A DNA stretch of 37,722 bases from the NCBI GenBank assembly GCA_019114345.1, contig DXFS01000092.1, positions 1-37,722 of the forward strand, written 5' to 3'. Source of the stretch: Candidatus Agathobaculum pullistercoris. Its GTDB lineage: Bacteria; Bacillota; Clostridia; Oscillospirales; Butyricicoccaceae. The position numbers and the translations under genes were made by a program. Every line of letters starts with the position of its first letter. Positions within the stretch are counted from its first letter, which is position 1. The notes beneath the pieces are model-generated. The model was not told where the DNA came from. It saw only the letters and a list, made by a program, of their open reading frames with translations, and made no database searches. Shown piece after piece: positions 2 through 5,476 of the stretch.

Positions 2-271
2 AACGCGCCGCACCCGCTTTCCGAGGTATTGGATGCGATCCCTGCCGGGACGCTGACGCTTGCCGGGTCGGTCCCCTTCTGGCTGCACGCCCGCGCCGTC
101 CAAAACGACCTGCCGCTGACCGATTACTTAACGCGCGATGAGCTTGCGATCCGCAACGCGGTACCGATCTCCTTAGCGGAAAAGCGCTTTTGCCGCAGCA
201 AACAGCAGGAGCCGGCCCGAAGGCCGGCTCCTGCTGTTGCATTTTGTCGTTTCCATGTGGCTCAGTCATGA
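2..271 (+). CDS. dpaA: Dipicolinate synthase subunit A, upstream fragment (interrupted dpaA/spoVFA)
   Basis: This is the middle of DpaA, the NAD(P)-type subunit of dipicolinate synthase, which makes the spore-core chelator dipicolinic acid in the mother cell. The gene begins before the window. Codons 2-166 give a segment ending R-D-E-L-A-I-R-N-A-V-P, which aligns with R-D-D-I-A-I-Y-N-S-I-P of Bacillus subtilis SpoVFA (recalled from family knowledge). In SpoVFA the next residues are T-V-E-G; here homology stops after the proline. The frame then runs through unrelated sequence, including a large hairpin, to TGA at 269-271. The matching downstream part starts at 4407. In the arrangement shown the product would be truncated and inactive. 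I infer a site-specific intervening element rather than decay, because both halves are intact up to the break. Confidence 0.9.
   Translation, partial: NAPHPLSEVLDAIPAGTLTLAGSVPFWLHARAVQNDLPLTDYLTRDELAIRNAVPISLAEKRFCRSKQQEPARRPAPAVAFCRFHVAQS
145..180. other. Left attachment site of the dpaA element
   Basis: The predicted crossover dinucleotide is CC at 164-165. To its left is dpaA sequence with GGTA directly next to the core. To its right is the element end, whose arm 166-179 pairs with the right-end arm 4393-4406 at 9 of 14 positions in the predicted circle, including all four positions 11-14 from the core (CCGC against GCGG). Position is inferred from protein homology plus symmetry. Confidence 0.65.
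201..238. terminator. 17-bp perfect hairpin just inside the left element end
   Basis: Arms 201-217 and 222-238 pair perfectly around a CGAA loop. On the plus strand a T-rich stretch follows (GCATTTTGTCGTTT). It lies 23 bp beyond the yitT stop codon and 35 bp beyond the dpaA break, so it can end yitT transcription and also stop the interrupted dpaA transcript. Confidence 0.7.
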
Positions 272-1167
272 GGCTTGCGGTAAAAATTCCCCGCCACATG
301 GTCGGTTTTCAGGATATTGATAAAGGCTCTGGGGTCGATCTCATGCACGGCCCGGGTGATCTGCTTGACCTGGTCGCCCGCGATGACCGAATAGATCATA
401 TCCCGCTCTTTGCCGTTATACAGGCCGGTACCGCGGAAGAGTGTAGCCCCGTGGTGTGTCGTATCTTTTATTCGTTCATATACCTCGATCGCACGGTCAG
501 AAATGATGAAAAGCGTGGTCCGCTTGAAGCGCAGGTCGAGCATATGTACAATCTGCGTGGAAGCAAACTGAAAGATGATCGAATACAGCGCTGCGTCCCA
601 GCCGAACAGCAGTCCGGCGACCGCCAGCATCACACAGTTGCCAAGGAAAATATAGTTCCATGCATCCACGCCCAGCCGCTCGCTCAGCGCGACCGAGATA
701 AAGTCTGTGCCGCCGCTTGTCGCACCTGCGAGCAGGCACAGGCTGATCGCAAGCCCGTTGAAAATGCCGCCGAAGATACATACCAGCAGCACATCGTTTG
801 TGATCGGCATGGACGGGATGAGGTCGGTCAACACGCTGGTCAGCACAATGGTCAGGCAGGAGTACAGCGTGAAATGCCTTCCAATCAGCTTATAGCTGAC
901 CACAGCCGGGATTGCATTGAGCGCAAGGTTGATCAGTGTAAACGGCAGCGTCACACCTGCAAACCGCTGCGCACTGCGCTGGATCAGCAGGGTCAGACCG
1001 TTAAATCCGCCCGGGAACAGGCCGCCCGCATCCACAAAGCTCTGGATATTGGCCGCCATTAGAACGGATGCGGCGATAATCAGCAGCAAGCGCCTGCAGG
1101 TTTGCCAGCCGCTCTGCGGCCGCGCCGGGAATCCCGCTGTTCCTCTGTCCTTTCCCCTGTTTCCCAT
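262..1167 (-). CDS. YitT family membrane protein (DUF2179 C-terminus)
   Basis: A 301-residue membrane protein of the YitT/YebE type. A short basic N-terminus is followed by five to six hydrophobic segments (about residues 25-180), including the family's conserved G-G-x-x-G-L and G-A-T-S-G-G-T-D stretches. A soluble C-terminal DUF2179 domain ends in a segment like I-D-P-R-A-F-I. The biochemical role of the family is not established; transport or small-ligand sensing is often assumed. The start at 1167 is chosen because a GGGGGAGA ribosome site lies five bases upstream; an in-frame codon at 1203 lacks one. A good sigma-A promoter precedes it. It lies wholly inside the dpaA element and is divergent from the permease. 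Confidence 0.85.
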   Translation of the reverse strand: MGNRGKDRGTAGFPARPQSGWQTCRRLLLIIAASVLMAANIQSFVDAGGLFPGGFNGLTLLIQRSAQRFAGVTLPFTLINLALNAIPAVVSYKLIGRHFTLYSCLTIVLTSVLTDLIPSMPITNDVLLVCIFGGIFNGLAISLCLLAGATSGGTDFISVALSERLGVDAWNYIFLGNCVMLAVAGLLFGWDAALYSIIFQFASTQIVHMLDLRFKRTTLFIISDRAIEVYERIKDTTHHGATLFRGTGLYNGKERDMIYSVIAGDQVKQITRAVHEIDPRAFINILKTDHVAGNFYRKPHD

Positions 1168-1220
1168 TCTTTCTCCCCCTTGATAAATGGATCGATAAAC
1201 CACCCTGTGTCTGCACGATT

Positions 1221-1250
1221 ATTATAGCACACAGCCGCTCCGGCCCTCAA
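1221..1250 (-). promoter_or_regulatory. Sigma-A promoter of the yitT-like gene
   Basis: On the minus strand, -35 TTGAGG (1245-1250), an 18-bp spacer and -10 TATAAT (1221-1226) lie about 55 bp upstream of the chosen start. This is a vegetative-type promoter inside the dpaA element. Confidence 0.65.
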
Positions 1251-1365
1251 GGCAGTAACCTGGGAATTCGCTGTAAATTTATCCGCGTTGTGGCGGTCGT
1301 TCCCTGTGTCATGTTCCCTATATTTGTGCTTTTCGACAAAGGATGCCGTTTTTTACAAATTTCCG

Positions 1366-1394
1366 TGGACATACCGGGTGGGATTTGATATGAT
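1366..1394 (+). promoter_or_regulatory. Sigma-A promoter of the NCS2 permease
   Basis: TGGACA (1366-1371), a 17-bp spacer and TATGAT (1389-1394), about 75 bp upstream of the permease start. The leader that follows contains the 1412-1436 hairpin. Confidence 0.6.
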
Positions 1395-1411
1395 AATAAG
1401 GTATTTCACTG

Positions 1412-1436
1412 CCCGCAGCCGCCGCACGGCTGCGGG
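1412..1436 (+). promoter_or_regulatory. Leader hairpin upstream of the permease
   Basis: A perfect 9-bp GC-rich stem (1412-1420 with 1428-1436) and 7-base loop sit in the permease leader. No T-run follows, so it is not a classic terminator. I could not find the conserved core of a purine riboswitch here. Confidence 0.4.
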
Positions 1437-1471
1437 CGCATTTCACAGAACAAAGGAAGGCTGTTGATCCA

Positions 1472-2800
1472 ATGCAAAAAGAGAAAACTTCGGGCGGAGA
1501 ACTGTTCCGGCTCGACGGCAAACCCTCCTGGGGGCAGGCGTTCCCGCAGGCGCTGCAGCATGTGCTGGCCATGCTGGTCGGCAACATCACCCCGCCGATG
1601 CTGATCGCGAGCACGCTCTCGCTTTCTGCCGGCGACCAGATCATCCTCACCCAGGCCGCTATGCTCATCGGCGGCATCACCACCCTGCTGCAGCTCTATC
1701 CCCTCCTGGGCTTCGGCATGGGGCTGCCGAACGTCATGGGTGTGGCGTTTGCTTACATGCCCATCCTGACCATGATCGGCACACAGTACGGCATTTCTGC
1801 CATTTTCGGCTCCCAGCTCGTCGCAGGCTTTGTCTCAATCTTTATCGGCATGTTCATGGGAAAGATCCGGCGTTTCTTCCCGCCCATCGTCAGCGGCACC
1901 GTAGTGCTCAGCATCGGCCTGACGCTGTATGAAACCGCGATGAACTACATGGGCGGCGGCTCAGCCGCACAGAATGCCGGCACCTTCGGCTCCGGCCAGT
2001 TCTGGATCCTTGCACTGATCACACTGGCTGTCACGCTGGCCTGCAGCCTGTTCGGCAAAGGCTATGTACGCGTTTCCGGTATGCTGATCGGCATCCTGGT
2101 CGGCTATGTGATCGCGCTGTTCATGGGCGGCATTGTGGACTTCAGCAGCCTCGGCGAGGCAGGCTGGATCTCGCTGCCCCGCCCGTTCTATTTCAGCCTG
2201 GCGTTCCATCCGGACGCAATCATTATGATGATCCTGATGTACGTCGTTCAGGCTGTGCAGACGATCGGCGATGTCTCCTCGACCGCTATGGGCGGCTTTG
2301 GCCGTGAAGCGACCGACAAGGAACTCGGCGGCGCAATCAAGGGCCAGTCGGTCTGCGGCATGATCGGCGCGGTCATCGGCGGTCTGCCGACCGACCCGTA
2401 CAGCCAGAATGTCGGCCTGATCTGCACGACCAAGGTTGTCGCCAAGCGTGTGTTTGTGATTGTCGGCGCGGTCATGCTGGTGGCGGGCTTCTGCCCCAAG
2501 TTCGGCGCGCTGATGACCACCATCCCGCAGCCTGTTCTGGGCGGTGCAACGGTTACTGTATTCGCGGCGATCACCATGTCGGGCATCCAGCTGCTGAACG
2601 AGCAGCCGATGAATTACCGCAACAAGATGATCGTGGGCATTGCGCTCGCGCTCGGCCTGGGCATCGACGCTGTGCCGGATATCCTGCAGTTCTGCCCGCA
2701 GCTTGTCCGCAACATCTTCGGCAGCTCGCTGGTGATATCTTTCCTTGTCGTGTTCCTGCTCAATATCATCGTGCCGGAGGACGATTCCCCGGCCACCTGA
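1472..2800 (+). CDS. NCS2 family nucleobase (xanthine/uracil-type) permease
   Basis: A 442-residue proton- or sodium-coupled nucleobase importer of the NCS2 (UraA/PbuX/XanQ) family in the cytoplasmic membrane. About 12-14 hydrophobic segments are visible. Family motifs include an N-terminal Q-H-V-L-A-M (about residue 29), a transmembrane-8-type Q-T-I-G-D with following S-S-T-A, and a downstream G-x-x-x-x-P-T-D-P-Y-S-Q-N-V-G-L block. These fit the xanthine branch slightly better than uracil, but substrate is not settled by sequence alone. The start ATG has AAGGAAGG about 11 bases upstream. It is cargo of the dpaA element, is driven by its own vegetative-type promoter, and converges on the recombinase gene through a shared terminator. 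Confidence 0.88.
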   Translation: MQKEKTSGGELFRLDGKPSWGQAFPQALQHVLAMLVGNITPPMLIASTLSLSAGDQIILTQAAMLIGGITTLLQLYPLLGFGMGLPNVMGVAFAYMPILTMIGTQYGISAIFGSQLVAGFVSIFIGMFMGKIRRFFPPIVSGTVVLSIGLTLYETAMNYMGGGSAAQNAGTFGSGQFWILALITLAVTLACSLFGKGYVRVSGMLIGILVGYVIALFMGGIVDFSSLGEAGWISLPRPFYFSLAFHPDAIIMMILMYVVQAVQTIGDVSSTAMGGFGREATDKELGGAIKGQSVCGMIGAVIGGLPTDPYSQNVGLICTTKVVAKRVFVIVGAVMLVAGFCPKFGALMTTIPQPVLGGATVTVFAAITMSGIQLLNEQPMNYRNKMIVGIALALGLGIDAVPDILQFCPQLVRNIFGSSLVISFLVVFLLNIIVPEDDSPAT

Positions 2801-2813
2801 CCCAATGACGGCA

Positions 2814-2848
2814 AAACGCCCCGAAACACTATGTGTTTCGGGGCGTTT
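2814..2848. terminator. Bidirectional terminator between permease and recombinase
   Basis: A perfect 16-bp stem (2814-2829 with 2833-2848, loop TAT) flanked by A and T tracts on both sides. It serves the plus-strand permease and the minus-strand recombinase, whose TAA stop (2847-2849) overlaps the stem. Confidence 0.85.
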
Positions 2849-4205
2849 ACGTATCCTGCACCCGTTCGCAGGAGGAAAAGATCCCGCGCTTCCAGTCCTC
2901 TGCCTGCAGGCGGAACATCCCCGGCACGCCGCGCAGCCGCACCGCCAGCGCCCGCTCCTCCACGGTGATCTGTTCGGGCAGCGCCGCATAGGCTGCGCCG
3001 CCGGGCAGGGACTCGGTCTGCAGGAAGGCGCGGCAGGCTTCCCCGTCCGCGCCCGCTGTTTTCAAGCAAAGTGCGGCGGTTTCGGTTGCCGCCCGCCCGG
3101 TGTCAATGCCTATCCGGTCCAGCAGATACAACATGCCTGCGCACACCGTGCTATGCGGGACGGGATGCATGGTGCAGCCTGCCCTGCCGTGCTGCACCTG
3201 CGCCCGGCAGGCCCAGAAGCGGTACATGCTCCCGTCCGCACGAATACGCTGCCGCGGCACAAAGCGGCTGCCGCAGCCCCCGCACACCAGCTTACCCGAA
3301 CACCAGTACCGCGCGGAATGGCGCTTTTTCTGCCCGTTCGGTGCGCGCCGTGCCAGTTCGCGCTGCACCGCGTCGAACTGCTCCCGCGGCACGATCGCTT
3401 CATGGTGCCCGCGCAGATAGACCTGCTCCTCCCGTCCGTCGTTTTTCACTTTCCTGTGGTCGAGGAAATCCGGCGTGCAGGTCTTTTTCTGCAGCAGGTC
3501 GCCGCAATATTTTTCATTGCGCAGCAGCCGCAGCACCATGGTAGATGACCAAGGCTTATCCCGTGCGCGCGGCGGCGGGATGCCCGCCCCGGTCAGTTCG
3601 CGCGCAATAATGTACGTCCCCTTGCCCTCGTGCAGGAATTTGTGGTACACCGTGCGGATGACAGCCGCCTCCTCCGGCTTGACCGTCAGCCGCCCGCCGC
3701 GCAAATCAAAGCCGTAAATGTTGTTGCAGCCGAACACCACGCCCTGCTCCATCGAACGCCGCTGTCCCCATTTGACGCGCTCCGAGGTCTTGCGGCTCTC
3801 CTCCTGCGCCACGCTCGCCATGATGGTCAGGCGGAACTCCCCGTCGTTCTGCCGGGTGTCGATGTTGTCCGTGATGAACACCACGCCCACGCCGATCCGG
3901 CGCAGCGCCCGTGTATGCGCGAGCGCGTCCACCGTATTGCGGGCAAAACGCGACACCTCCTTGGTCAGGATCAGGTCGATCTCCCCCGCCTGCGCCGCGG
4001 CAATCATGCGCTGGAAGGCTGGGCGGTGCACCGTAGTGCCGGACAGGCCGCGGTCCGCGTAGATCTCCACCAGCGCCCAGTCCGGCCGGCGGCTGATGTA
4101 TTCTGCAAAATAGCGCCGCTGGTGCTCGAGCGAGTGCAGCTGATCGTCCTGCGCGGTGGAAACGCGGCAGTATGCCGCCACGCGCAGCTGTTCCCCGCCG
4201 CTCAT
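2847..4205 (-). CDS. Large serine recombinase (SpoIVCA-like), element excisionase/integrase
   Basis: A 452-residue large serine recombinase, predicted to cut and rejoin the dpaA attachment sites. The N-terminal resolvase domain (1-150) has Y-C-R-V-S with catalytic Ser16, D-R-G-L-S-G (51-56), and E-V-S-R-F-A-R-N (83-90) with the active-site arginines. The Recombinase domain follows (about 160-265). Next is a zinc-ribbon domain with Cys308, Cys311, Cys333 and Cys344. SpoIVCA of B. subtilis is about 500 residues, so this is slightly short, with a limited C-terminal coiled coil. The start at 4205 is chosen because its ATG overlaps the TGA of the upstream 44-codon ORF (ATGA), implying translational coupling; an in-frame codon at 4268 has no ribosome site. 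The gene is intact and lies about 200 bp from the right boundary, as expected for an autonomous element. Confidence 0.93.
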   Translation of the reverse strand: MSGGEQLRVAAYCRVSTAQDDQLHSLEHQRRYFAEYISRRPDWALVEIYADRGLSGTTVHRPAFQRMIAAAQAGEIDLILTKEVSRFARNTVDALAHTRALRRIGVGVVFITDNIDTRQNDGEFRLTIMASVAQEESRKTSERVKWGQRRSMEQGVVFGCNNIYGFDLRGGRLTVKPEEAAVIRTVYHKFLHEGKGTYIIARELTGAGIPPPRARDKPWSSTMVLRLLRNEKYCGDLLQKKTCTPDFLDHRKVKNDGREEQVYLRGHHEAIVPREQFDAVQRELARRAPNGQKKRHSARYWCSGKLVCGGCGSRFVPRQRIRADGSMYRFWACRAQVQHGRAGCTMHPVPHSTVCAGMLYLLDRIGIDTGRAATETAALCLKTAGADGEACRAFLQTESLPGGAAYAALPEQITVEERALAVRLRGVPGMFRLQAEDWKRGIFSSCERVQDT

Positions 4206-4336
4206 GCGCGGTGCAGCGCGGCAAGCGCCTGGGCGAGCGCCTCCGGGCTGAGCCTGCCCGCTGCGCACAGTGCACGCAACATGCCCTCTTTGAGCGCCCG
4301 CTCAACCCTTTCCTTTTCTTCCCTCGTAACCTGCAT
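4202..4336 (-). CDS. 44-residue protein coupled to the recombinase; candidate directionality factor
   Basis: A small ORF starting at ATG 4334-4336 behind a near-perfect ribosome site (GGAGGTGATC) and ending in TGA that overlaps the recombinase ATG. The protein is mostly helical and charged (start M-Q-V-T-R-E-E-K-E-R). Its second half, G-R-L-S-P-E-A-L-A-Q-A-L-A-A-L, resembles the short SHOCT-like helical hairpin. I do not recognise a family with certainty. Established precedent: the Clostridioides difficile skin element encodes a small recombination directionality factor needed for excision. Its position suggests a similar role here, but this is inference; it could equally be a leader that sets recombinase translation. 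Confidence 0.7.
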   Translation of the reverse strand: MQVTREEKERVERALKEGMLRALCAAGRLSPEALAQALAALHRA

Positions 4337-4357
4337 ACCGGATCACCTCCCTACCGG

Positions 4358-4366
4358 TACTATATG
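4358..4366 (-). promoter_or_regulatory. Possible mother-cell (sigma-K-like) -10 element for the recombinase operon
   Basis: On the minus strand the sequence CATATAGTA fits the CATA-N3-TA pattern of sigma-K -10 boxes (and 6 of 8 positions of a sigma-E -10). A start about 7 bases on would fall next to the GGAGGTGATC ribosome site. No convincing -35 is visible, so this is only suggestive. Confidence 0.3.
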
Positions 4367-4388
4367 CGGCGTCACCGGACAGCATGCC

Positions 4389-4425
4389 TATACCGCAAAC
4401 AACCTCCCTACCTGCGAGGGTGCCA
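4389..4425. other. Right attachment site of the dpaA element
   Basis: The predicted core is CC at 4407-4408. To the right, TACC (4409-4412) mirrors GGTA (160-163), so the restored chromosomal site reads GGTA-CC-TACC with dpaA in frame. To the left is the element arm with CCGC at 4393-4396. A 2-bp non-palindromic core inside imperfect dyads is typical of large serine recombinases. Confidence 0.65.
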
Positions 4426-4889
4426 TCCAGCTCGCCATGGAGCAGACCGATTTCACCCTGCAGGGCGCGCGCTGCCTAGTGATCGGCTGCGGCCGTATCG
4501 GCGCGCTGCTCGCGCGCAAGCTGCATGCACTGGATGCGCTTGTGACGGTTTCCGCCCGCTCTGCGCGCGATTTTGCCCGCATCGAGGCAGCAGGCTTAGC
4601 CGCGCTCGACACCCGCCGTCTGGCCGGGCATCTGGACGGCTTTGACCTGGTGTTCAACACCGTGCCTGCGCCCGTGCTCGGCGCATCCGAGCTGGCCGGG
4701 CTCAAGCCGGGCTGCGTGGTGATTGACCTTGCCTCCCTGCCCGGCGGCATTTCGCCCGACGTCAAGCTGCCGCCCGCCTGCCGCGTGCTGCATGCGCTCT
4801 CGCTGCCGGGACGGGTCGCGCCGCTGTCCGCCGCCCGCGCGATCCACGATACTGTGTGTGCGATTTTGCAGGAGGAGGGTGTGCTGTGA
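4407..4889 (+). CDS. dpaA: Dipicolinate synthase subunit A, downstream fragment (interrupted dpaA/spoVFA)
   Basis: The C-terminal part of DpaA. From 4407 the frame reads P-T-C-E-G-A-I-Q-L-A-M-E-Q-T-D-F, matching the P-T-V-E-G-T-I-M-L-A-I-Q-H-T-D-Y block of SpoVFA. A Rossmann dinucleotide-binding motif follows (V-I-G-C-G-R-I-G), then the D-L-A-S-x-P-G-G and L-P-G-R-V-A-P motifs typical of the family's C-terminus. It ends at TGA 4887-4889, overlapping the dpaB start (GTGA). There is no start codon or ribosome site of its own at the boundary; upstream in frame is element sequence. Functional protein requires joining to the fragment at 2-166. No frameshift or premature stop is seen, which argues for ongoing selection. 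Confidence 0.92.
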   Translation, partial: PTCEGAIQLAMEQTDFTLQGARCLVIGCGRIGALLARKLHALDALVTVSARSARDFARIEAAGLAALDTRRLAGHLDGFDLVFNTVPAPVLGASELAGLKPGCVVIDLASLPGGISPDVKLPPACRVLHALSLPGRVAPLSAARAIHDTVCAILQEEGVL

Positions 4890-5476
4890 CCAACCCGCTC
4901 CGCATCGGCTTTGCCCTTACCGGGTCGTTCTGCACCTTCTCCAGGGTGCTGCCTGTCATCCAATCCCTGACCGGGGACGGCTGCGTCGTCACCCCGGTCC
5001 TGTCTGCAAATGCCGGGTCGCTCGATACGCGCTTCGGCACAGCCGCCGGCTGGCGCGACCGTCTGTCCACGCTGACCGGACGCGCGCCGATCGACACCAT
5101 CGCCGCCGCCGAGCCCATCGGGCCGAAGGCCATGTTCGACGTACTCGTCGTCGCACCATGCACGGGCAATACGCTCGCCAAGCTGGCGCACGGCATTACG
5201 GACACGCCGGTCACCATGGCGGTCAAGAGCCACCTGCGCAGTGAAAAACCGGTTGTGCTCGCCGTCTCCACAAACGACGGGCTGGCCGGCAGCGCGGCCA
5301 ACCTCGGCATGCTGCTCAACCGGCGGCATTACTACTTTGTCCCCCTGCGGCAGGACGCCCCGGCCGCCAAGCCCCGCTCACTCGTCGCGGATATGCGGCT
5401 CGTGCCCGACACCATTGCCTCCGCGCTGGAGGGGAGGCAGCTCCAGCCCATCCTGCTCGCGCCGGGCGATGGCTGA
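4886..5476 (+). CDS. dpaB: Dipicolinate synthase subunit B (flavoprotein-like)
   Basis: DpaB (SpoVFB), the flavoprotein-fold partner of DpaA. The two convert the lysine-pathway intermediate hydroxytetrahydrodipicolinate to dipicolinic acid in the mother cell. The 196 residues (B. subtilis about 200) show the N-terminal I-G-F-A-L-T-G-S-F-C-T-F motif, the V-V-A-P-C-T-G-N-T-L-A-K-L-A-H-G-I-T-D-T-P phosphate/flavin loop, and the C-terminal L-L-N-R-R-H-Y-Y-F-V-P-L-R-Q-D block. The start is GTG at 4886, inside the GTGA overlap with the dpaA stop and behind AGGAGGAGGG; this implies translational coupling. With the element in place, transcription from the dpaA promoter would probably not reach dpaB, so both subunits would depend on excision. 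Confidence 0.93.
   Translation: MTNPLRIGFALTGSFCTFSRVLPVIQSLTGDGCVVTPVLSANAGSLDTRFGTAAGWRDRLSTLTGRAPIDTIAAAEPIGPKAMFDVLVVAPCTGNTLAKLAHGITDTPVTMAVKSHLRSEKPVVLAVSTNDGLAGSAANLGMLLNRRHYYFVPLRQDAPAAKPRSLVADMRLVPDTIASALEGRQLQPILLAPGDG

Follow-up and report, generated by a model that had tools for sequence, protein, structure and literature searches.

The window analysed here, the first 37.7 kb (37,722 nucleotides) of contig C60 (DXFS01000092.1) from a metagenome-assembled genome (MAG) of Candidatus Agathobaculum pullistercoris (G000; 2.06 Mb, 102 contigs, 77.4% complete), begins within the sporulation gene dpaA (spoVFA), which is interrupted in frame by an element of 4,243 bp (core to core, window 164 to 4408). 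With a probability of about 85%, we consider this insertion to be a skin-type developmental excision element, and we read it as a domesticated variant of that type which targets dpaA. The product of dpaA acts in the mother cell, which is discarded once sporulation is over, and the split gene can probably work only after the element has been cut out there. Several features characteristic of skin-type elements are observed, namely, in-frame splitting of a sporulation gene with exact restoration upon joining of the pieces, a site-specific recombinase encoded next to the attachment site, and, as detailed below, host gene pieces that are maintained by selection.

Only the last 55 codons of the N-terminal part lie in the window (Table 1); the first ~76 codons fall outside it, and residues 2-75 are found at the edge of contig C44 (C44:2-223). 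The C-terminal part, with a few preceding residues, aligns with the DpsA model (297 positions) from position 131 to position 291, and its scores on NF006162 and TIGR02853 are both under the whole-protein cut-offs. When the halves are joined at the shared CC, they produce one continuous DpsA match (193.5 bits, model positions 88-291), compared with 169 bits when the C half is scored by itself. With the same model, joined DpaA of Agathobaculum massiliense (G012) reaches 244 bits and an uninterrupted natural relative 254 bits, both short of the cut-off of 261. The break presumably falls close to where the N-terminal domain gives way to the NAD-binding domain, and the element separates dpaB from the dpaA promoter. 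The original prediction, made from the sequence of the window, had described a 4.2-kb serine-recombinase element that breaks dpaA within a conserved NAVP/TCEGAIQ motif with no residue lost and holds an intact recombinase gene between the halves. This description is borne out by the restored frame and continuous model match, by the domain content of the recombinase and by eight uninterrupted relatives in which NA[VI]PTCEG runs continuously over the split point. Not part of that prediction were the cargo of non-phage type, the missing coiled coil of the recombinase, the occurrence of the split elsewhere in the genus and outside it, and the sister recombinases in cotJC.

The same split recurs across the genus. 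Among 25 Agathobaculum genomes, the dpaA C half was detected at E<=1e-20 in 20, of which 12 carry a split gene (G000, G002, G004, G007, G008, G009, G010, G012, G013, G017, G021, and G024) and eight an uninterrupted one (G003, G005, G015, G018, G019, G020, G022, and G023). The nucleotide break is located between residues 132 and 133 (NAVP/TCEG) in all 12 split genomes, and recurrence at the same codon in 12 genomes means that the split in the window is not due to chance. The carriers include A. butyriciproducens DSM 100391 (G008), Butyricicoccus faecihominis (G024), and Butyricicoccus sp. Marseille-Q5471 (G002). The element measures 2.49 kb in G021, 2.53 kb in G010, 3.25 kb in G017, 3.70 kb in G009, 3.92 kb in A. 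massiliense, 4.24 kb in the window, and 6.56 kb in A. butyriciproducens, and, as computed from match positions, ~23 kb in G002 and ~45 kb in B. faecihominis; in G004, G007, and G013, the dpaA halves are on different contigs. In every split genome, an orthologous recombinase 54-77% identical to that of the window is encoded on the opposite strand next to the C half, its matched start lying 185-429 bp before the latter.

Decay of either half, which had been named as an outcome that would speak against a developmental element, was sought and not found among these carriers: the N half comprises 132 codons and the C half 159 codons, with no stop and constant length in 12/12 genomes. The median ratios of nonsynonymous to synonymous substitution rates (dN/dS) are 0.145 for the N half (55 pairs, window excluded) and 0.157 for the C half (66 pairs) in split genomes, and 0.109 (N half; finite values in 26 of 28 pairs) and 0.107 (C half; finite values in 20 of 21 pairs, with G019 excluded because of its length) in unsplit ones. 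Both halves in carriers are under purifying selection. On a tree of DpaA and DpaB, the distribution of split and unsplit genes needs three changes, a number as low as this being reached in 2 and 4 of 500 shuffles; the pattern looks as if an old insertion had been cleanly lost a few times, repeated gain being the alternative. Cargo orthologs are also held in common: the YitT gene occurs in the elements of the window, A. massiliense, and G009 (the latter two proteins 81-82% identical to that of the window), and the permease gene in those of the window, G017 (92% identical), and, judging from its proximity to the N half, G004, which suggests long residence of the element.

Table 1 Features of the split dpaA locus in the window, and features of related loci (L) given in coordinates of those loci
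Feature	Position	Strand	Remarks
dpaA N-terminal part, codons 78-132	2..166	+	Open from base 2; last residues IRNAVP; proline codon 164-166
Left crossover core CC (attL)	164..165	+	Same CC as right end
Intervening element	166..4406	.	4,243 bp core to core
YitT/DUF2179 membrane protein gene (cargo)	262..1182	-	PF02588 6.7e-48, PF10035 4.1e-17
NCS2 purine/xanthine-type permease gene (cargo)	1472..2800	+	PF00860 2.4e-83, TIGR03173 3.5e-114 (under its cut-off)
Large serine recombinase, 452 aa, without coiled-coil motif	2847..4205	-	Resolvase, Recombinase, zinc-ribbon domains; intact
44-aa open reading frame, candidate excision factor by position	4202..4336	-	Overlaps recombinase start (ATGA)
CATATAGT, -10 of putative sigma-E-like promoter for small reading frame and recombinase	4359..4366	-	Motif match
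GCATGCT, -35 of the same putative promoter	4381..4387	-	Spacing 14
Right crossover core CC (attR)	4407..4408	+	Same CC as left end
dpaA C-terminal part, codons 133-291	4410..4889	+	Start TCEGAIQ; NF006162 1.4e-49, TIGR02853 1.5e-42
dpaB (spoVFB)	4886..5476	+	NF006161 1.4e-80, TIGR02852 1.9e-72, both above cut-offs
Divergent Spo0A paralog inside element	L060:7738-8478, L059:15732-16487, L064:15534-16400, L067:5868-6614		Also in three more elements
Second dpaA break	L131:5316-9895		LysA- and DapF-type genes between pieces
Second dpaA break	L097:4214-9875		ThiG and BATS/radical-SAM protein between pieces

Attachment sites, recombinase and promoter-like signals

In Agathobaculum, the left junction reads AACGC.GT.CCT, or near it, and the right junction GC.AACG.....CCT followed by ACCTGCGAGGG. 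Since the third base differs between the two ends in the window (CCG on the left, CCT on the right), the exchange must occur at or before the CC. When the seven predicted circle junctions were scored for symmetry over 22 positions, the CC centre was the best in three (11 positions in the window, 11 in G017, and 13 in G021) and second in G010 (11) and A. massiliense (8), and in G008 and G009 it ranked below third.

The domain content of the window enzyme is that of a large serine recombinase, and among solved structures, SprA, the integrase of SPbeta, comes nearest to it in fold (~20% identity). The coiled-coil motif of the zinc domain was not found in it, either by alignment or in the predicted structure. 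The enzyme is devoid of ~70 residues present in those of A. massiliense, G002, and B. faecihominis; at the place where the A. massiliense model displays helices 377-422 and 428-460, arranged as a coiled-coil-like hairpin (mean pLDDT 80.3), the window model has helices of 16 and 12 residues (mean pLDDT 81.5). Judged by length and, within the genus, by alignment, short enzymes (431-462 aa) are encoded in the window, G004, G017, G008, G010, G013, G021, and L143 (Flavonifractor sp. An100); the G007 enzyme is cut by the contig end. The short forms occupy three places on the recombinase tree, implying at least three coiled-coil losses if the motif has never been regained. Eight weaker serine recombinase matches (27-32% identity) are scattered over contigs C12, C19, C42, C43, C57, C59, and C64 of the MAG.

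Upstream of dpaA, the bases AC, exactly 17 bp, and CATAnnnTG are present in all 15 genomes examined out of the 20 (each p 0.000-0.035, 200 shuffles), a motif that we take to be the sigma-K pattern apart from the last base; it directly precedes the Shine-Dalgarno sequence in 14 of the 15 and stands farther upstream in G023. The small open reading frame (ORF) and the recombinase gene are preceded in 12/12 split genomes by GCATAnnnT and a Shine-Dalgarno sequence, a combination which occurs once in the whole window (both strands), at the putative recombinase promoter, and 21 times in twelve related loci, putative recombinase promoters included (1 per 20 kb of strand). Scored against what we take to be the sigma-E consensus, the -10 and -35 of the window match at 11/14 positions, with 0/200 shuffles as good; the same score, with the -35 at 14 bp, is reached in the window, G017, G004, and G008 (p 0.000-0.025). 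A. massiliense scores 10 (p 0.115) and G009, G010, G013, and G021 score 8 (p 0.445-0.785), and in G002, B. faecihominis, and G007, the best sigma-E-like score is located elsewhere than at the recombinase -10. As to which factor might serve the recombinase, the -10 fits both sigma-K and sigma-E, and the -35 favours sigma-E in 4/12 genomes and gives no preference in the other eight.

Cargo and related elements beyond the genus

In profile searches, no phage gene was found among the three proteins of the window element (YitT, permease, and recombinase), and a prophage origin of this element was rejected on these grounds. To our knowledge, since the description of gin, the element in gerE considered below, phage genes have ceased to define the skin type. 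Among the 16 ORFs of the ~23-kb G002 element are type IV pilus genes, and none of the 17 Pfam families matched there is a structural one of phages. In the B. faecihominis element (37 ORFs), no capsid, tail or terminase was seen among 25 of the 45 PHROG families, which include integrases, sugar epimerases, helicases, and transporters. A Spo0A_C match is found inside the element in seven of the 12 split genomes (G007, G008, G009, G010, G012, G013, and G021), with canonical Spo0A encoded elsewhere in the genome, and the presence of both receiver and Spo0A_C domains was confirmed in the four elements scanned (G008, G010, G012, and G021); such a paralog could influence sporulation from inside the element. 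The YitT, permease, and Spo0A paralog genes are of host type; further cargo includes QueT, a class-V aminotransferase, and a PP-loop protein in A. butyriciproducens and an FtsW/RodA-FHA protein with a transpeptidase in L143. The permease of the window is the sole one at E<=1e-60 in the incomplete G000.

A survey of 84,980 species genomes yielded 454 relatives of the recombinase, of which the best 80 were analysed. A dpaA half was present within the fetched DNA in 38 of these loci, 10 from Agathobaculum and 28 from other bacteria, including Flavonifractor (F. plautii ATCC 29863 among them), Pseudoflavonifractor, Intestinimonas, Flintibacter muris, and Intestinibacillus massiliensis. Because the dpaA queries had been cut at the split site, the junctions were re-read: 21/21 N halves near related recombinases reach NA[VI]P and then leave DpaA sequence, and 28/28 C halves begin T[CA]EGA after a foreign stretch ending in P (one via an ambiguous base). 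On the recombinase tree of 82 rows (the 80 plus the window and G010), linkage to dpaA requires three changes, compared with a shuffled mean of 27.6. The -10 motif with a Shine-Dalgarno sequence was counted in 10/10 Agathobaculum, 6/28 other dpaA-linked, and 3/42 non-dpaA loci, so that a sporulation-type recombinase promoter, as predicted from such matches, is well supported in the genus and weakly outside it. The small ORF (37-46 aa in the 12 split genomes, where it always precedes the recombinase) has no Pfam match, and matches to it at E<0.05 were obtained in 10/10 Agathobaculum, 19/28 other dpaA-linked, and 31/42 other loci. It was thus rejected as a dpaA-specific excision factor, being common throughout this recombinase group, and is by position a candidate for a general one.

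Many of the 42 loci without dpaA contain parts of cotJC, the gene for the spore-coat manganese catalase, recognised via Pfam Mn_catalase in 3/39 flanking ORFs. A cotJC C fragment is located near DIGTEELAH in 20 loci and an N fragment alone (motif search), mostly ending near LTDIG, in 7 further ones; in total, the sister recombinase group adjoins cotJC pieces in 27/42 (e.g., L098, L099, L107, L109, L121, L132, L138, and L145). The split of cotJC near LTDIG/TEELAH is possibly another undescribed sporulation-gene element. One cotJC piece, with a clostridial-type recombinase, is in a locus filed as Parabacteroides sp. (L103), probably a binning error. Among the best 80 viral contigs, a cotJC N fragment was identified in four (L200, L201, L202, and L204), and no dpaA fragment at E<=1e-4 was found. 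Of the five recombinases on viral contigs that most resemble the query, four have such an N fragment of cotJC in their vicinity; hence, phage-like contigs with cotJC-targeting relatives exist. A second dpaA split, at KPGG/VD, is found in two genomes (L131 and L097), accompanied there by another, different serine recombinase that shares ~30% identity with the query. In the first of these genomes (completeness unstated), dapF was found only within the split, and in the other (completeness likewise unstated), full-length thiG was found only there, plus one weak partial match elsewhere.

Proposed mechanism and alternative explanations

In the mechanism that we propose, codons 133-291 of dpaA, together with dpaB, would be kept apart from codons 1-132 and their sigma-K-like promoter by the 4.2-kb element, both during growth and in the spore-bound genome. 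Transcription of the small ORF and the recombinase gene in the mother cell would depend on a sigma factor of early sporulation, to judge by sequence sigma-E, and the recombinase would join the two CC cores, releasing a circle with the YitT, permease, and recombinase genes. The dpaA-dpaB pair would be rebuilt in frame behind the sigma-K-like promoter, leading to dipicolinate synthesis. Given that the window enzyme is without the coiled coil that normally blocks recombination between attL and attR, the direction of the reaction may rest on timing rather than on an excision factor. In E. coli, LI integrase deprived of its coiled coil is reported to recombine each of the four pairs of sites tested, among them attL x attR (PMC3783163).

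A more encompassing scenario, to which we would give somewhat less than even odds, links all these loci. One serine recombinase lineage would have specialised on mother-cell sporulation genes, at dpaA codon 132/133 and, in the sister group, at cotJC LTDIG/TEELAH, and would have become in gut Clostridia a domesticated, clade-wide developmental excision system. The smallest forms would have repeatedly lost the coiled coil, so that the enzyme serves as its own excisionase and only the mother-cell promoter sets the timing. The elements would also shelter host genes, and the DNA at KPGG/VD, with its different recombinase, would hold the apparently single-copy dapF and thiG, locking it into the genome.

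Excision itself, its timing, the sigma factors involved, and the role of coiled-coil loss are deduced from sequence. Several points count against developmental excision. The sigma-E -35 is non-significant in 8/12 genomes, and outside the genus, the -10 with Shine-Dalgarno sequence is present in 6/28 dpaA-linked loci as against 3/42 controls. The dN/dS values are slightly higher in split than in unsplit genomes, and all of them are rough, since synonymous sites are near saturation. In a study using in vitro single-molecule tests, excision by the LI integrase without its coiled coil is reported to be weak (2.2%) and the corresponding phiC31 enzyme inactive (PMC10754689). Finally, no full canonical spo0A was found in the incomplete G000, so that its ability to sporulate is judged from relatives: strong canonical Spo0A matches were obtained in 21/25 genomes of the genus, weak partial ones only in G000 and G004, and none in G015 and G020. 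Factors of the sigma-E/K type match in 25/25 genomes, all under the model cut-off and one with an internal stop.

Could the element be merely parked in dpaA, leaving occasionally for transfer without developmental control, with carriers devoid of dipicolinate until then? The recombinase clade extends over many genera with varied cargo and orientations, sister recombinases are on viral contigs with a cotJC fragment, and excision here has been inferred rather than observed, all of which would suit such an element. Purifying selection on both dpaA halves across a large divergence, the cargo orthologs in common with the long residence they suggest, and the sporulation-type -10 in 12/12 genomes nevertheless make this account unlikely. 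Functioning of the halves as two separate polypeptides, with no DNA excision needed, appears more improbable still. The C half does retain the entire NAD-binding region, but it would, like dpaB, be without the dpaA promoter; moreover, the N-half tails range from 13 to 115 aa and differ in length and sequence in 7/7 elements read, and no start codon stands at a conserved place before the C half in the 12 genomes. With neither the tails nor the in-frame C-half starts conserved, the selection observed requires joining rather than two separate proteins, and this explanation was disfavoured. We attach just as little credence to dpaA being dead in carriers or to the split being an assembly fault. 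The gene is at a contig end of a 102-contig MAG, and dpaA was not found at E<=1e-20 in 5/25 genomes of the genus (G001, G006, G011, G014, and G016), one of them a single-contig genome of 4.0 Mb; canonical Spo0A is present in all five. Against this, the same structure is seen in isolates, including A. massiliense (2 contigs, listed as 100% complete), and the halves have no stops, constant length, and low dN/dS.

Significance and comparison with known systems

If developmental excision is true, dipicolinate synthesis, and hence spore heat resistance, in Agathobaculum would depend on programmed DNA deletion, possibly as well in Flavonifractor, Intestinimonas, and related gut bacteria. A new target (dpaA), a second target (cotJC), and a second dpaA site would be added to those known, and programmed deletion would become a trait common to a genus and beyond. 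A natural test of direction control in serine integrases is offered by the occurrence, at a single site, of related enzymes some of which have the coiled coil and others not. In practical terms, annotation may miss dpaA in carrier genomes because the gene is split.

In the accessible portions of the papers cited here and below, elements are described in sigK, spoVFB, spoVR, spsM, gerE, kamA, and yabG (PMC4191935, PMC10747680, PMC5025042, PMC5595907, PMC6957869). Within the same portions, neither dpaA nor spoVFA is mentioned in PMC4191935 and PMC10747680, nor is dpaA in PMC5595907. In the literature searched by title and start of abstract, subscription literature being mostly beyond reach, no paper on an element in dpaA or cotJC was found, in line with the earlier suspicion that an element in spoVFA was undescribed.

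The closest parallels are skin of B. subtilis and skinCd of Clostridioides difficile, likewise serine-recombinase elements that split a mother-cell gene, sigK, in frame. Sigma-E controls the recombinase gene of B. subtilis (PMC5025042, PMC6957869), and skr, which encodes the skin excision factor, overlaps spoIVCA at its start (PMC6957869), as the small ORF overlaps the recombinase start here. The window element differs from skin in its target, in that no phage gene was seen in it, and in its recombinase without coiled coil; skinCd, for its part, requires the excision factor CD1234, with the recombinase constitutively expressed. In Bacillus weihenstephanensis, vfbin splits spoVFB, the partner gene in the same dipicolinate synthase operon, and its recombinase is expressed in the sporulation phase (PMC4191935, PMC5595907); as described, it is set apart from the dpaA element by its location in the other subunit (dpaB) and by its phage-related genes. 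Excision of SPbeta from spsM by a serine integrase, SprA, likewise restores a mother-cell gene, but SPbeta is an active prophage whose SprA depends on SprB, whereas the window enzyme has ~20% identity with SprA and no coiled coil. The gin element in gerE of Bacillus cereus ATCC 10987 is another case of non-phage, developmentally timed serine recombination (PMC5595907), yet it comprises 28.6 kb with three recombinases and the factor GirX, whereas the seven dpaA elements read whole measure 2.5-6.6 kb and have a single recombinase. Finally, yin resides in yabG, also a mother-cell sporulation gene of a clostridium (Clostridium botulinum), but is a prophage reported in one strain and dispensable for sporulation (PMC10747680), whereas the dpaA split recurs through a genus and outside it. 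The kind of element is known; its novelty lies in the target, dpaA, in the fact that the window element shows no phage genes, in an enzyme without the coiled coil, and in how widely the split occurs.

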